From contig JAPKYA010000012.1 of assembly GCA_026394565.1 (NCBI GenBank), positions 1 to 50,233 of the forward strand: DNA of 50,233 nucleotides, read 5' to 3'. Both the position numbers and the translations under genes were made by a program. This document shows, in pieces, positions 1 to 38,221 of the stretch. Origin of the DNA: Methanothrix sp. (GTDB lineage: Archaea; Halobacteriota; Methanosarcinia; Methanotrichales; Methanotrichaceae). A model generated the notes under the pieces. The model ran no database searches. It had not been told where the DNA came from and was given only the letters and a program-made list of their open reading frames with translations. Positions within the stretch are counted from its first letter, which is position 1. Each line of letters starts with the position of its first letter.

Positions 1-444
1 GATAATATAATAAAAAAATACCATGGGAGAGAAGGTTTCTTGATCCAGTTGCTTTTAGATCTGCAAAGCGAGCTGCACTGGATCTCCAAAGAAGCAATCG
101 AGGAGCTCTCCCATAGGCTTAAAATTCCAACAAGCCAGATATTCAGAGTGGCAAGCTTCTATAAAGCGATGAGTCTCTCTCCAGTAGGCCGGCATAAAGT
201 ATGCGTTTGCATGGGAACCGCCTGCCAGGTGCGAGGCGCTCAGAGATTGCTGGATACAACCGAGTTAAAATTGGGGATAAAACAGGGACAGACTACATCG
301 GACTCTAATTTCACTTTAAATAGGGTCAACTGCCTGGGATGCTGCGCCATCGGCCCGGTAATAGTCGCAGATGATGAATATCATGGTCGGGTGGACTCCA
401 AGAAGGTAGAAAAAATTCTGGAGCAGCTTGCTTCCGATAGTTAG
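1..444 (+). CDS. NuoE/HydC-like thioredoxin-fold [2Fe-2S] subunit (5' end outside window)
   Basis: Small electron-transfer subunit of the NADH dehydrogenase 24-kDa type. It carries the usual [2Fe-2S] ligand pattern: C-x4-C in VCMGTACQ, then C-x3-C in NCLGCCAIG. The frame stays open to base 1 and the upstream residues (IIKKYHGREGFLIQLL) match the family's N-terminal helix, so the TTG at 40 is internal and the real start lies before the window. In the family this subunit docks on NuoF and carries an off-path cluster. It is 32 bp upstream of the NuoF-like gene in the same operon. Family assignment is firm; partner and substrate are inferred from the neighbours. Confidence 0.9.
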   Translation, partial: DNIIKKYHGREGFLIQLLLDLQSELHWISKEAIEELSHRLKIPTSQIFRVASFYKAMSLSPVGRHKVCVCMGTACQVRGAQRLLDTTELKLGIKQGQTTSDSNFTLNRVNCLGCCAIGPVIVADDEYHGRVDSKKVEKILEQLASDS

Positions 445-476
445 TACTATTAGATGATAGGAAAAATGGGGAAGAG

Positions 477-2414
477 ATGGTAAGACTTACATCAATCCAG
501 GATCTGGAGGTCTTGAGAGATGAAATCACGCGCAAGAGAGACCCCGGTAGAAAAGAGGTGGCAATCTGTACCGGTACCGGGTGTCTGGGCCTTGGCGCGC
601 GAAAGGTCGTCAGCGCCTTTGAAATAGAGGTGGAGAAAAGGGGTATGCAAAGAGAGATCAGCATTAAGGAGACGGGGTGTCCCGGCTTTTGCGAAAAGGG
701 AACTCTCGTAGTTGTATATCCGCCGGGAATCTATTACCTGGGCGTCCAGCCGGATGATGTGCCGGAGATCGTGGAGGAGACCCTTCTCAAAGGCGGGCTG
801 GTGGAACGCCTGCTTTACACAGATCCTGCAACCGGCCAAAAGGCAATACTGGAAGATGATATCCCATTTTATAATCATCAGATGAGATTTTTAATAAAAA
901 ATAATATAAAAATAAATCCAAAAAATATATACGACTATATAGCTCTGGGCGGCTATGCTGCACTAGCGCGCGTCCTATCACAAATGACGACCCTTGGGGT
1001 GATTGGAGAGATAAAAAAGTCGGGCCTCCGAGGGAGGGGCGGGGGTGGCTTTCCCACCGGGCAAAAATGGGAATCGACGGCTAGAGCGCCAGGCCAGCCC
1101 AAGTATGTGATCGTCAATTGCGATGAGGGAGATCCAGGCGCCTTTATGGATCGTGCCCTCATGGAGGGCAATCCGCACAGCGTTTTGGAGGGCCTGATAA
1201 TTGGAGCCTATGCAGTTGGAGCGCATAGCGGCTACATCTATGTGCGCATGGAGTATCCTCTGGCCGTGGAAAATGCCAAATTCGCCCTGCATCAGGCCAG
1301 AGAGCTGGGGCTTCTCGGTGAGAACATACTTGGCAGCGGATTTGATTTTGACGTATCCGTGCATAGAGGGGCAGGAGCCTTCGTCTCCGGAGAGTCGACC
1401 GCTCTCATGAACGCCCTGGAGGGCAAGGTGGGCGAGCCCCGGCCCAAGTACGTCCATACCTCGGAGTGCGGAGTCTGGAATCGACCGAGCATCCTCAACA
1501 ATGTGGAGACCTGGGCCAATATCCCGCTCATCATCAACCGGGGGGCTGCATGGTTTTCCTCCATTGGAACGGAAAGAAGCAAGGGAACCAAGATCTTCTC
1601 ACTGGTAGGAAAGGTCAACAATACCGGTCTGGTGGAGGTTCCCATGGGCATGAGCTTGGCCGATATAATTTACAAGATCGGAGGCGGAATTCCTGGAGGG
1701 AAGAAGCTCAAAGGAGTGCAGACAGGCGGCCCCTCCGGGGGAATAATTCCGGCGCAGTATTTGCAGACGCCGGTTGACTTCGACGAGCTTACTCGCCTTG
1801 GCTCTATGATGGGCTCAGGCAGCATTATCGTCATAGACGAGGATACCTGTGCCGTCGATTTGGCCCGCTACTTTGTGGACTTTCTCTGCGATGAGTCCTG
1901 CGGCAAGTGCCTGCCCTGCCGGGAGGGCCTGTTGCGAATGCGAGAGATACTGGACGGCATCGTTTCCGGCAGAGGGCAGGAGGGAGATCTGCAGCTCCTC
2001 AAGGAGATTGCCGAACTGATGAGAAAGGCGTCCCTCTGTGCTCTGGGCCGCACAGCCGTCAATCCGGTTTTAAGCACGTTGTCCCACTTTCCAGATGAAT
2101 ATGCGGCCCATATAATCGAGAAAAGGTGCCCCTCTCTGGCCTGCAAAGCCCTTGTTTCATATCACATAGAGCCCGAGATATGCATGGGATGCGGCCTGTG
2201 CCAGAAGAACTGTCCCCAGGGAGCAATCGAGGAAGGGGAGGCCGGCATCTGTGTCATAGATCAATCCCGCTGTACTCGATGCGGCATTTGCTTCGATGTC
2301 TGTCCGCCAAAGGCGAGAGCCGTCAGGAAGGTTTCTCGCGGCCTTTCCCAGTCTGCTTCCCCGACCAGTTTAGCGAAAGCGAAAGGCGACTTCAAGAGAG
2401 ATGAGAAGGCATGA
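477..2414 (+). CDS. NuoF/HydB-like flavoprotein with extra iron-sulfur domains
   Basis: 645-residue NuoF-type subunit in the long bifurcating-hydrogenase arrangement. An N-terminal thioredoxin-like [2Fe-2S] domain (C31, C36, C68, C72) is followed by the FMN/NADH-binding domain with GRGGGGFPTG at 186-195 and NCDEGDPGAF at about 214-223, an SLBB domain, and the N3-type [4Fe-4S] site C475/C478/C481/C521. The C-terminal ferredoxin domain has two [4Fe-4S] motifs (C569-C579 and C599-C609). Where many NuoF proteins read GEETAL, this one reads GESTAL (305-310), a change near the nucleotide pocket. The start overlaps no other gene; the stop overlaps the next start (ATGATG). The family oxidises or reduces NAD(P)H; whether this protein uses NAD(P) in a methanogen is not shown. 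Confidence 0.92.
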   Translation: MVRLTSIQDLEVLRDEITRKRDPGRKEVAICTGTGCLGLGARKVVSAFEIEVEKRGMQREISIKETGCPGFCEKGTLVVVYPPGIYYLGVQPDDVPEIVEETLLKGGLVERLLYTDPATGQKAILEDDIPFYNHQMRFLIKNNIKINPKNIYDYIALGGYAALARVLSQMTTLGVIGEIKKSGLRGRGGGGFPTGQKWESTARAPGQPKYVIVNCDEGDPGAFMDRALMEGNPHSVLEGLIIGAYAVGAHSGYIYVRMEYPLAVENAKFALHQARELGLLGENILGSGFDFDVSVHRGAGAFVSGESTALMNALEGKVGEPRPKYVHTSECGVWNRPSILNNVETWANIPLIINRGAAWFSSIGTERSKGTKIFSLVGKVNNTGLVEVPMGMSLADIIYKIGGGIPGGKKLKGVQTGGPSGGIIPAQYLQTPVDFDELTRLGSMMGSGSIIVIDEDTCAVDLARYFVDFLCDESCGKCLPCREGLLRMREILDGIVSGRGQEGDLQLLKEIAELMRKASLCALGRTAVNPVLSTLSHFPDEYAAHIIEKRCPSLACKALVSYHIEPEICMGCGLCQKNCPQGAIEEGEAGICVIDQSRCTRCGICFDVCPPKARAVRKVSRGLSQSASPTSLAKAKGDFKRDEKA

Positions 2415-3844
2415 TGAAGCTCAGAATAAATATCGACGGTCATGAGATTGAGACCGATGCCGAGGGTGGCCCGGTCACGATCCTGGAGGCGGCGAGGCTG
2501 GCCGGCATCCATATACCCACGCTATGCCATCATCCTTCTCTCGAAGCCTATGGATCTTGCCGGCTGTGCACTGTGCAAATCGTTAAAAATGGCCGGAAAA
2601 AGTTTGTCACCGCCTGCAACTATCCGGTGGAGGATGGCCTTGTCGTAAATACCTGCTCTCCGGAGGTTGCGGACATTAGGAAGATGATATTAGAGCTTCT
2701 CATAGCCCGATGCCCCCAGGAGAAAAGATTACAGGAGCTGGCCGGAGAATACGGGATTTTCAAGCCTCGCTTTATTTTAGAGGATAAAAATTGCATCCTC
2801 TGCGGGCTATGCCACCGGGTCTGCGAGGAGCTGGTGGGTGTCTCGGCCATCAATGCTCAGAATCGAGGAGTTTCCAGGGATGTGGATACGCCCTACGGAG
2901 AATTATCAGAGGACTGCATTGCATGTGGAGCATGTGCCCTGGTATGTCCCACGCGCTCCATATTGGAAAGAAAAAACATCTACCCGCTGTCCTCTGCAGA
3001 TATAATAGAGTTGGAAGAGGAATTTCTGAGTGGAACGATTGATAGCGACCTGGGAGTCAATAGGGAGATGTTTGCCGGCAAGAGCAGCATAGAGGGGCAG
3101 GATGGGGGCATGGCGACCTCAATTCTCCAACGGAGAATTGAGATGGGCCTGCTGGATGCGGCTGTGGTTGCCCAAAAAAATAAGATCTGCGGAGCGAATG
3201 CTGCTTTGGTTGACGAAACTGAGTCAATTTTGCAGGCAAAGGGGACGAAGTATGTGCGGGTGTCTGTTATCGCCCCGCTCCTGGATGCCTTGCAGAGGGG
3301 CAAAAGGAGAATTGCAGTTGTCGGCACGCCCTGTCAGATCCGAGTGGTCAGGAAATTGCAGAGGCAGGGCTATTTCGATGAAAAATTTCCGGACGCAGAG
3401 ATGTTTCTCATAGGGCTCTTCTGTTTCGAAAGCTTCGATTACGAATCCCTCAAAAGTCGCGTCAGAGAGCTTTTCGGCATAGATCTGGATAAGGCCGAAA
3501 AGATGCAGATCGCCAGAGGAAAATTCATAGTGACAGTAGACGGCAAACAGTACTCCTGCCGTGTGCGGGAGCTTGAGAACGCTGTGAGGGCAGGCTGCTC
3601 GTTTTGCGGTGATCTGGTCAATCGGCTGGCAGATATATCCATAGGCTCGATTGGAAGCCCGGATGGATACTCCACTGTGATAGTCAGATCGGAGCGGGGG
3701 GTAAAGCTGCTGGAAGGGGTGCAGTTTGACAGAAGAGAGATAAACAAGGATGAGATCGTCAAGCTGGCTGCAATTAAAAAGAAAAATGCAGATAAAAATT
3801 TTGCAGGGATTGTTGCAGGGCTGCCGGACCGGCTCGATGCTTAA
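2411..3844 (+). CDS. NuoG-N-terminal ferredoxin module fused to FrhB/FdhB F420-binding domain
   Basis: 477-residue fusion. Residues 1-80 form a plant-type [2Fe-2S] ferredoxin (C39, C50, C53, C69). Residues 125-180 hold two [4Fe-4S] motifs (C128/C131/C134/C138 and C169/C172/C175/C179), as in NuoG or HydA N-termini. Residues about 205-460 match the coenzyme F420 hydrogenase/dehydrogenase beta subunit (FrhB/FdhB/FpoF family), with GTPCQIRVVRKL at 305 and a CSFC motif at 396-399 followed by ADISIGS. There is no H-cluster domain and no formate dehydrogenase domain, so the F420 domain sits where bifurcating hydrogenases carry their catalytic part. It overlaps the NuoF gene by 4 bp, which implies translational coupling. 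The domain calls are strong; the overall reaction is inferred. Confidence 0.88.
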   Translation: MMKLRINIDGHEIETDAEGGPVTILEAARLAGIHIPTLCHHPSLEAYGSCRLCTVQIVKNGRKKFVTACNYPVEDGLVVNTCSPEVADIRKMILELLIARCPQEKRLQELAGEYGIFKPRFILEDKNCILCGLCHRVCEELVGVSAINAQNRGVSRDVDTPYGELSEDCIACGACALVCPTRSILERKNIYPLSSADIIELEEEFLSGTIDSDLGVNREMFAGKSSIEGQDGGMATSILQRRIEMGLLDAAVVAQKNKICGANAALVDETESILQAKGTKYVRVSVIAPLLDALQRGKRRIAVVGTPCQIRVVRKLQRQGYFDEKFPDAEMFLIGLFCFESFDYESLKSRVRELFGIDLDKAEKMQIARGKFIVTVDGKQYSCRVRELENAVRAGCSFCGDLVNRLADISIGSIGSPDGYSTVIVRSERGVKLLEGVQFDRREINKDEIVKLAAIKKKNADKNFAGIVAGLPDRLDA

Positions 3845-3850
3845 TTCAAT

Positions 3851-5773
3851 TCAACGTTCGATTTCGATCTGGGCCTGAGCAGGTGCAAGTCTGTGCTCAG
3901 TGCTCATCTCAAATTCGACTCCTTTAGGTCCTACACTAAGTCTCCATCTCTCCATACTCCTGTAGAGAAGGACAAAGAGGATTGTTGCAGTGAAGAACAT
4001 CAACAGAGCTGTAAACGATGTTTCCTTCAGTTTTTCTGTCCAGAAAAAGTAGATTGACACCAATAATAGCGGCAAAACCAGAAATATAGCAATCATAATT
4101 TGCTCTATTGTTATCTCTGAAGGGAACATGCCTGAAGACGTCTCGACTTTCTCGACGAGCCGAAGATTCCTTATCGCTTTTATGTTTCTTGGATCGATGG
4201 TTCTAGCCATGGAAAACTCTTTTCTTGCCTTGGAAAAAAGCTTCTTTTTGGTATATACCCAGCCCAAGTTATTGTGGATTTCCGATTTGGCCGAGTCATC
4301 CATTTTATCAGAGTGCTCCAGCGCGAATTTGTATTTTTTCTCTGATTCATCCAACCAATCTTCATCAGCCAAAATGTCGCCAAGAGTTCCCAAATAATTT
4401 GGGTCCAAAGGATCAATATCCAGCGCAATTCTTACTTCTTTTTCTGCCTCGCTAAACCGCCTCCCTTTTCTCAATAGATTTGCGTAGTTGTTGTGAGCTG
4501 CGGCAAGATTGGGATCGGCCTTGATTGCGAGACGGTACTGCTCTATAGCCTCATCCTTTCTTCCCAGATCTGCGAGCAGCACGCCCAAGTTGGAGTAAGC
4601 CGCGGCAAGATTCGGATCAGCTTTTAATGCCATCCTATACTGCTTTTCTGCCTCATCCTTTCTTCCCAGATCTGCGAGCAGAACGCCCAAGTTGTAATAG
4701 GCGGCTGCATAATTTGGATCAATTTCGGTGGCCAGCCGGAATTGCTTCTCTGCCTCATTCATTCTCCCAAAATCAATGAGCAGTATGCCCAAGTTGTAGC
4801 AAGCCGTCGAATAATTTGAGTCTGCCTTAATGGCGAGGCGGTACTGCCCTTCGGCTTCAATCTTTCTGCCCAGATCTTTGAACAATATACCCAAGTTGTT
4901 GTAAGCTGCCGCATAATTCGGATCAGCCTTTATGGCCATATGATATTGCTCTTCCGCCTCGCTCTTTCTACCAAGATCTTCAAGCAGCATGCCCAAGTTG
5001 TAGTAAGCCGCCGAATAATTCGGGTCAGCTTTTATAGCGAGACGATACTGCTCCTCTGCCTCATTCTTTCTCCCCAGATTATTGAGCAGTATGCCCAAGC
5101 TAAAGTAAGCTACAGCAGAATTTGGATTAGCTTTGGTGGCAAGCCTATACTGCTCTTCGGCCTCATTATTTCTGTCCAAATCTTTGAGCAGGTTGCCTAA
5201 ATTATTGTGGGGTTCTGCTAGATTCGGGTTAATCTTTATTGCCGAACGGTATTGCACCTCTGCCTCATCATTTCTACCCAAATCTTTGAGCAGGTTGCCT
5301 AAATTATTGTAGGCTTCTGCTGAATTCGGATCAATCCTGATAGCCATACGGAACTGCTCTTCTGCCTCTTTTTTTCTCCCCAAATCAATGAGCACCACGC
5401 CTAAGCCTGTGTGTGCCAACACATAATTTGAATCAAAATTGATGGCCTTTTTATAGAGTTCTTCAGACCTTTCGAGGTTATTTAAAAAATATGAGGCCCT
5501 TCCTGCATTATTGTATGCCAACGCCTTTTCATCGAGGCCTTCTGCAGCTGCTAATACCAGAATATACACATGTTTGTATTGCTTGGCTTTATCCTGGATT
5601 TCAGACAATTCCAGAAGTCTTTGCGGGCTTATTTCCATCTTTTTGGCTAAAGCAATTGCATCGCCAACGCAAGCATCCAGGTCGCCTTTCTCTAGGCAGG
5701 AAGCAATCTTTTCCAGGAGGGCCTTTTCCATATCTTCTGTCATGAGCATCCTTTGACGATTCTCAATCCCCAT
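3851..5773 (-). CDS. TPR-repeat protein with two C-terminal membrane segments
   Basis: 640 residues. From about 90 to 500 the protein is a run of at least ten 34-residue tetratricopeptide repeats with the consensus AxYNLGxLLxDLGRxxEAEEQYRxAIKxDPN. Two hydrophobic helices follow near 555-575 and 585-602, so the TPR superhelix is probably tethered to the membrane. TPR arrays bind proteins; no partner can be named. Some repeats are nearly identical at the DNA level (about 4540-4700), which suggests recent unit duplication. It converges on the redox operon with only 6 bp between stop codons. An earlier or later in-frame Met near the N-terminus could be the real start. Confidence 0.8.
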   Translation of the reverse strand: MGIENRQRMLMTEDMEKALLEKIASCLEKGDLDACVGDAIALAKKMEISPQRLLELSEIQDKAKQYKHVYILVLAAAEGLDEKALAYNNAGRASYFLNNLERSEELYKKAINFDSNYVLAHTGLGVVLIDLGRKKEAEEQFRMAIRIDPNSAEAYNNLGNLLKDLGRNDEAEVQYRSAIKINPNLAEPHNNLGNLLKDLDRNNEAEEQYRLATKANPNSAVAYFSLGILLNNLGRKNEAEEQYRLAIKADPNYSAAYYNLGMLLEDLGRKSEAEEQYHMAIKADPNYAAAYNNLGILFKDLGRKIEAEGQYRLAIKADSNYSTACYNLGILLIDFGRMNEAEKQFRLATEIDPNYAAAYYNLGVLLADLGRKDEAEKQYRMALKADPNLAAAYSNLGVLLADLGRKDEAIEQYRLAIKADPNLAAAHNNYANLLRKGRRFSEAEKEVRIALDIDPLDPNYLGTLGDILADEDWLDESEKKYKFALEHSDKMDDSAKSEIHNNLGWVYTKKKLFSKARKEFSMARTIDPRNIKAIRNLRLVEKVETSSGMFPSEITIEQIMIAIFLVLPLLLVSIYFFWTEKLKETSFTALLMFFTATILFVLLYRSMERWRLSVGPKGVEFEMSTEHRLAPAQAQIEIER

Positions 5774-36475: not shown

Positions 36476-38221
<1,746 letters not shown>

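Follow-up and report, generated by a model that had tools for sequence, protein, structure and literature searches.

A Methanothrix operon predicted to encode an F420-linked bifurcating Bfu complex, with relatives in Methanotrichaceae and ANME-1

Electron bifurcation has been reported from assays of several complexes of the Bfu family, namely HydABC, HydABCSL, Wor-Bfu and Nfn-Bfu. A further kind, F420-Bfu, was named by Schut et al. (2022; PMC9304861), who placed it in Type 1 and BfuB clade 45 with two sequences from Methanosaetaceae and proposed that it forms F420H2 from NADH and ferredoxin. In the openly licensed PMC literature searched, the name appears in that paper only, and no assay of F420-Bfu was found. 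In this work, we analysed a three-gene operon at the start of a 50,233-nucleotide stretch of Methanothrix sp. DNA (hereafter the window; assembly GCA_026394565.1, contig JAPKYA010000012.1), which belongs to a 2.29 Mb genome bin that is 79% complete. A NuoE-like gene is followed by NuoF and then by a gene that fuses the N-terminus of NuoG/HydA to FrhB. As far as F420-Bfu is described by Schut et al., the operon has in common with it the three-gene layout, the organism family, an F420-dehydrogenase domain replacing the H-cluster, and the predicted coupling of NAD, ferredoxin and F420. The idea of such a complex is already in print. Beyond it, we report the fusion in ANME-1 and in families f12 and f37, two independent FrhB captures, the loss of one B2 ligand position, and in Methanotrichaceae an alternation with another Bfu together with a deletion scar.

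Other described systems share parts of this layout. The BfuBC core is common to HydABC and HydABCSL, but these have H-cluster or NiFe subunits and Cys or Thr at the Cys476 position, whereas here the partner is FrhB. The closest solved BfuA (247 aa, with the same clusters and without the His-ligated cluster), together with a close BfuB, is that of the BfuABC of Wor-Bfu (tungsten aldehyde oxidoreductase, PDB 9mqx), in which the third substrate enters through separate subunits and not through a fused FrhB. The F420-reducing CODH and Fwd of an ethanotroph (PMC11493965) also have a FrhB-type module wired to another oxidoreductase, and F420 reduction was measured there, although these enzymes as described are without NuoEF, NAD or bifurcation. 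In ANME, Chadwick et al. (2022; PMC9012536) described FrhB8 'NuoF-Trx' clusters, in which a FrhB paralogue is accompanied by a divergent NuoF and by a gene resembling thioredoxin; NuoE is itself Trx-like, and these clusters are very probably the ANME-1 copies reported here. The available text of that paper makes no mention of a NuoG N-terminal fusion, the Bfu family or a bifurcating role. Further literature drawn on comprises PMC12918732, PMC10470525, PMC11237513, PMC9499530, PMC10482914, PMC8880783, PMC8498797 and PMC12054007. The features of the operon are as follows.

1–444, + strand: BfuC/NuoE/HydC-type subunit (147 aa, frame open at the contig start, which cuts its 5' end) with [2Fe-2S] cluster C1; 2Fe-2S_thioredx, PF01257, E 6e-48 in a profile search; best PDB sequence match NiFe-HydC 7t2r_C, 1.3e-35; Cys 70, 75, 111 and 115 as C-x4-C...C-x3-C.
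477–2414, + strand: BfuB/NuoF/HydB-type subunit with FMN and NAD(H) site and probable ferredoxin site; best PDB sequence matches bifurcating HydB 7t2r_B (3.8e-220) and 8a6t_B (1.5e-219), and Wor-Bfu 9mqx_B (1.9e-211).
537–815, + strand: N-terminal Trx-like [2Fe-2S] domain of BfuB (aa 21–113), cluster B5 of Schut et al.; PF01257 3.3e-5, just short of the cut-off; NF041612 2Fe-2S ferredoxin 1.1e-16; C31, C36, C68 and C72.
1848–2144, + strand: B1 [4Fe-4S] and the disputed B2 metal site; B2-type ligands C458, H545, C551 and C556 present, Cys476 equivalent V496.
2163–2315, + strand: C-terminal 2x[4Fe-4S] domain of BfuB (aa 563–613), clusters B3/B4, proposed ferredoxin docking; PF00037 and PF12838; eight Cys kept.
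2411–3844, + strand: BfuA-FrhB fusion subunit, 477 aa, from Pfam and NCBIfam domains.
2411–2962, + strand: NuoG/HydA/BfuA N-terminal part with [2Fe-2S] (C39, C50, C53, C69) and two [4Fe-4S] (C128/131/134/138 and C169/172/175/179); best PDB sequence match BfuA of Wor-Bfu 9mqx_A, 1.3e-41, aa 9–183.
3071–3724, + strand: FrhB/FdhB F420-oxidoreductase module with FAD and one [4Fe-4S], ligands C308, C338, C396 and C399 by invariance; PF04422 8.8e-11, PF04432 5.8e-40; Frh beta 3zfs_C 5.5e-37; Fsr 7npa 1.1e-40; Foldseek 8riu_B 1.5e-25, FrhB chains with target TM-score 0.81–0.84.

The product of this operon is probably a HydABC-like Bfu of Type 1 that falls under the name F420-Bfu, for which bifurcation among F420, NAD and ferredoxin is predicted. 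An earlier note, made from the letters of this DNA, had read positions 1–3844 as a NuoE-NuoF-fusion operon, and both its coordinates and its domains were confirmed with Pfam and NCBIfam. The start of the fusion gene overlaps the NuoF stop. NuoF (645 aa) is composed of an N-terminal Trx-like [2Fe-2S] domain, Complex1_51K, SLBB, NADH_4Fe-4S and a C-terminal 2x[4Fe-4S] domain; the likeness to HydABC-type enzymes that the note had seen in the extra terminal cluster domains holds, the best PDB matches being bifurcating HydB. The fusion protein contains Fer2_4, a 4Fe-4S dicluster, FrhB_FdhB_N and FrhB_FdhB_C (5.8e-40), which agrees with the proposed NuoG/HydA-type [2Fe-2S]/2x[4Fe-4S] N-terminus joined to FrhB. 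Its 16 cysteines fitting four clusters are invariant in 38/38 rows of type I fusions, the larger of the two types separated in the FrhB tree below. The claimed lack of an H-cluster also stood: no H-cluster Pfam family matched the fusion protein, the NCBIfam hydrogenase models match its N-terminal part only (aa 5–192), and the His-ligated [4Fe-4S] motif of NuoG/HydA occurs in 0/43 fusion rows of the alignment. Full NuoG is not matched: with TIGR01973 the fusion protein scores 75 bits where 470 are required, and it also stays below the thresholds curated for true FrhB and FpoF. The Pfam domains of the three proteins give the domain set of the Bfu family (BfuB, BfuC, BfuA). C1 was scored in the window only, and its BfuC ligands were found there. 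Among the fusion-operon BfuB rows, the eight Cys of B3/B4 are kept in 45/45 (duplicates included), the B1 ligands in 45/45 (C475 and C478 in 44/45, the remaining row being a gap), and the B5 Cys in 11/11 rows whose DNA reached that far. As judged from these motifs, the FMN/NAD fold is present in the BfuBC core, whose cluster motifs match those of bifurcating HydBC in everything but one disputed ligand, and the C-terminus of BfuA is a FrhB F420 module by its domains, in place of the H-cluster domain. One AlphaFold2 job on the fusion protein (43 sequences) gave a model with a mean pLDDT of 73.9 and a pTM of 0.66, in which the FrhB half is good. Foldseek matched the C-terminal half to F420-reducing CODH (8riu), Fsr and FrhB, and the N-terminal half to BfuA of Wor-Bfu, HydA and HoxU.

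The disputed ligand belongs to B2. Feng et al. reported B2 of A. mobile HydB as a [2Fe-2S] cluster on Cys438, Cys476, Cys531, Cys536 and His525, with Cys or Thr at the Cys476 position elsewhere, and Furlan et al. reported the T. maritima site as Zn on three Cys and one His. In an ungapped alignment, V496 of the window stands at the Cys476 position (A. mobile numbering). After removal of nine duplicate BfuB rows, this residue is Val in 33, Ile in 2 and Glu in 1 of the 36 type I NuoF, and the other four B2 ligands are kept in these rows bar one gap at C458. Val is also found in type II (4/4) and HdrA-linked (2/2) BfuB, Cys in a glutamate-synthase-linked pair, and Thr, Ser or Cys in the alternative Methanothrix BfuB described below. 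The 54 other BfuB, mostly bacterial (55 less L020, a type I copy), have T in 22, C in 22, V in 5, S in 4 and A in 1. According to the alignment, the F420-Bfu clade keeps a Cys3-His site and would be unable to form the five-ligand cluster as drawn.

The fusion was found in 22/50 Methanotrichaceae genomes, in one piece in 21 and split over two contigs in one (G016), and in 29/51 genomes of family f10. We assign this family to ANME-1 because four of its loci are DNA-identical to named ones (two titled Methanophagales, one ANME-1 cluster archaeon and one Methanomicrobia archaeon). Since 22 Methanotrichaceae genomes carry the fusion, including G003 on a contig of 3,008,626 bases, it is no assembly artefact. 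The ANME-1 copies comprise 22 type I fusions of full or nearly full length, 4 contig-cut type I fusions and 3 of the second type, which has ~44% identity. A scan of named genomes gave 579 matching loci, of which the best 80 were taken; the 11 fusions among them all come from Methanothrix/Methanotrichaceae or ANME-1-type records (titled ANME-1 cluster archaeon, Methanophagales, Methanosarcinales or Methanomicrobia archaeon), with NuoF directly upstream in 11/11 and NuoE in 10/11, the other being cut by the contig. In a phylum draw of 392 genomes, 58 match at E 1e-45, many through one half alone. The window's genome and G003 each have two FrhB-family proteins, of which the fusion is one. The operon is absent from 6/6 genomes of genus g9, which includes probable M. 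thermoacetophila, and is also missing from other Methanotrichaceae. G017 retains the two flanks and the final third of the fusion but is missing ~3.46 kb, apparently a deletion scar if the bin is correctly assembled. With absence or deletion in several Methanotrichaceae, the operon can be regarded as useful but dispensable.

The flanks of the type I loci that were read hold no conserved metabolic neighbour, apart from Fno adjoining the operon in G197. A protein of 273–283 aa with a 4Fe-4S dicluster lies divergently just upstream of the operon in three Methanothrix loci (L048 330–1166, L049 4666–5514, L050 1781–2599) and also in G017. In the window, a highly repetitive TPR protein of 640 aa (3851–5773, - strand) is encoded convergently to the fusion gene, whose stop is 6 bases away, and Mer (TIGR03555, 471 bits; 36485–37438, - strand) lies 33 kb from the operon.

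The two types of fusion differ in the origin of their FrhB part. In the FrhB tree, the 17 rows of type I (support 98/95) fall beside stand-alone FrhB from genomes of the ANME-1 family and of Bathyarchaeota, and the 5 rows of type II have another position. Holding types I and II together was rejected (AU p 4.8e-5), in a tree with long branches elsewhere. In the BfuB tree, both types form a clade (99/96) with HdrA-linked and glutamate-synthase-linked Bfu of ANME-1 and one Dehalococcoidia sequence. This clade is nested among Chloroflexota BfuB with starred support, in a tree without a rooted outgroup or the Schut sequences; type I alone (85/84) is not firm. Because the FrhB parts separate while the BfuB parts cluster among Chloroflexota, the bifurcating core appears to have come from bacteria and to have been connected to F420 on two later occasions. 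In all three f12 genomes (G064, G073, G080), type II NuoE-NuoF-A has Mer, the F420-dependent methylene-H4MPT reductase, directly upstream. NadM, the NMN adenylyltransferase of NAD synthesis, is the next gene downstream in G064 (TIGR01527, 257 bits) and G080, and the G073 contig ends inside the A gene; NadM was tested by HMM in one f12 locus (L130) and recognised by eye in L128. With Mer and NadM as flanks, the type II operon of f12 is tied to both F420 and NAD.

We hypothesize that the complex works as follows. The FAD of the FrhB module would exchange hydride with F420H2 (or F420). Single electrons would then pass from the FrhB [4Fe-4S] to the two BfuA [4Fe-4S], the BfuA [2Fe-2S], B1 and the FMN in BfuB, where they would be split between NAD+ and ferredoxin, the latter via BfuC and the B3/B4 clusters. 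Summed up, the complex would catalyse 2 F420H2 + NAD+ + Fd(ox) <=> 2 F420 + NADH + Fd(red). The potentials in Table 1 of Schut et al. are -500 mV for ferredoxin, -360 mV for F420 and -280 mV for NAD, so that NADH and ferredoxin as donors average -390 mV. By hand calculation, the confurcating reaction of NADH and reduced ferredoxin to 2 F420H2 yields about -12 kJ/mol per four electrons, or about -4 kJ/mol with E0'. The reaction should therefore be reversible in principle. In acetate-grown Methanothrix, the complex is expected mostly to make F420H2, because the CO-dehydrogenase step reduces ferredoxin. The earlier note had suggested an exchange of electrons among F420, NAD(P) and ferredoxin that may run by bifurcation, in either direction; this agrees with all sequence tests and with the published F420-Bfu prediction, but as an idea it is not new.

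F420-Bfu as the product of the operon is favoured by the domains and cluster motifs present, by the operon order and its conservation across Methanotrichaceae and ANME-1, by the bifurcation of the homologous complexes, by the reduction of F420 through FrhB modules on other oxidoreductases, and by the adjoining Mer in 3/3 f12 operons and NadM in the two whose contig reaches it. Several points weigh against it. The case is built from sequence and predicted structure. Every type I copy has lost one of the B2 ligand positions that were proposed for HydABCSL. The fusion model has a pLDDT <50 at residues 120–163, the dicluster linker between the two halves, which leaves the cluster-to-cluster path hypothetical. 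Furthermore, the Mer and NadM neighbours are absent at the ANME-1 type II loci with flanks (L129, L132), and none were seen around type I loci.

The alternative that survives best, though unlikely, is a simple non-bifurcating NADH:F420 oxidoreductase in which the extra NuoF clusters are an inherited ornament. F420 and NAD differ little in potential, and the change at B2 (V496) could have put the ferredoxin branch out of action. However, four of the five B2 ligands are kept, the Cys of B3/B4 and B5 are retained in every readable row, and non-bifurcating homologues are reported by Schut et al. (PMC9304861) to be without B2–B5. It is distinctly unlikely that a bifurcating complex uses NADP(H) instead of NAD(H). 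The FMN/NAD loop motifs of the window NuoF are GRGGGGFPTG, NCDEGDPG and GAGAFVSGES, which we take to be of the NAD-enzyme type. NADPH-linked Bfu are reported (Nfn-Bfu, through a different module), but NADP-linked Fno (TIGR01915) occurs in 32/34 Methanotrichaceae genomes searched, which would make an NADP route partly redundant. The weakest reading is an input module for the membrane complex Fpo', with NuoEF-NuoG-N acting like the complex I N-module that such subunits form and passing NADH and F420H2 electrons to methanophenazine; FpoF is reported absent from Fpo' in 22/27 Methanothrix genomes of a 2026 survey, but in the loci inspected by eye the operon has no recognised fpo gene as a neighbour, the operon is absent from g9, which is reported to have Fpo' too, and BfuB is far closer to bifurcating HydB (E 1e-220) than to complex I NuoF (about 1e-105), so this is very improbable. 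The earlier note had linked the operon to the missing FpoF. The lack of FpoF in Methanothrix is indeed reported, M. thermoacetophila being one of the species concerned, but F420-Bfu was rejected as its general replacement because of the absences and the apparent deletion in Methanotrichaceae given above. As a replacement of Fno in Methanothrix it was likewise rejected, Fno being so frequent in this family and adjoining the operon in G197.

Besides F420-Bfu, 13 Methanotrichaceae genomes without the fusion carry another BfuB, ~50% identical, with a NuoG/molybdopterin-like A subunit (six genomes were read, the remainder identified by search). This Bfu consists of NuoE, NuoF, the A subunit (751 aa) and a SudB/NfnA-like FAD/NAD subunit (SudB-like in G022), and is found at L141 5667–11230, L142 3204–8601, L144 1–5495 and L145 5087–10600. 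With these two subunits, its assignment as Nfn-Bfu was dropped. Among the 50 Methanotrichaceae genomes, 22 have F420-Bfu, 13 the other Bfu, none clearly both, and 15 neither. Mutual exclusion gave a one-sided Fisher p of 1e-4, or 9e-4 when G425 (an unclear BfuB fragment) is counted as both, and 0.08 among 33 genomes at least 90% complete with G017 as a carrier and G425 as both, all uncorrected for relatedness. The two Bfu thus alternate, with an association that is significant overall and weak in the near-complete subset.

In ANME-1, Fno is universally absent and the return path of MetF-derived NADPH electrons was called an important open question (Chadwick et al., 2022; PMC9012536). Here, Fno was found in 0/46 genomes outside Methanotrichaceae (42 f10, 3 f12, 1 f37, chosen for matching the fusion query), including all 29 ANME-1 carriers. 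Mer is present in 1/51 f10 genomes, a non-carrier, and a MetF-family protein (PF02219) in 42/51, including 26/29 carriers. Provided that NAD(H) is supplied by MetF or some other enzyme, F420-Bfu is a candidate for the return path, and it may replace Fno at most in ANME-1. This role is weakened by the 22/51 f10 genomes in which no F420-Bfu was found (bins incomplete) and by a rival candidate. MetV, MetF, HdrA (~660 aa), stand-alone FrhB and a second HdrA-like protein (~580 aa) are clustered in four ANME-1-family genomes (L179 2140–8560, L180 2553–8981, L181 160–4811 and L182 1949–8349 of G163, G205, G323 and G131, respectively; families HMM-confirmed in L180 only), and such a cluster could pass MetF electrons directly to HdrA and F420. 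According to Chadwick et al., none of the ANME-1 genomes they analysed has MetF clustered with HdrA (PMC9012536).

Two other ANME-1-family operons resemble Bfu. In L138 4285–8573 and L139 4266–8529 (G270, G304), BfuA has the C-terminal half of HdrA (HdrA2 model 455 bits, L138) and an N-terminal HdrA-like part lies just upstream, so that a double-bifurcating Bfu-Hdr complex is possible. In L146 5387–10044 and L148 6155–10828 (G304, G141), NuoE, NuoF and a short BfuA precede a protein of 529 aa that has a glutamate-synthase region (PF01645 5e-13, L148), possibly a glutamate-linked Bfu. A wider scenario can be offered only tentatively, and we consider it doubtful: in ANME-1, without Mer and Fno, F420-Bfu would be a main exchange between MetF-fed NAD(P)H and F420, confurcating NADH and reduced ferredoxin to F420H2 for the respiratory chain; archaea would have taken a BfuBC core from Chloroflexota-like bacteria and linked it to FrhB on at least two occasions and to HdrA as well; and the B2 metal site would not be five-coordinate as proposed.

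The natural loss of one proposed B2 ligand offers a ready test of the disputed mechanism of Bfu bifurcation. In ANME-1, the F420-Bfu, if it works as predicted, would bear on how MetF-derived NADPH electrons return to energy metabolism without Fno. More generally, methane archaea would have in it a way to exchange electrons among NAD, ferredoxin and F420 that needs no membrane.

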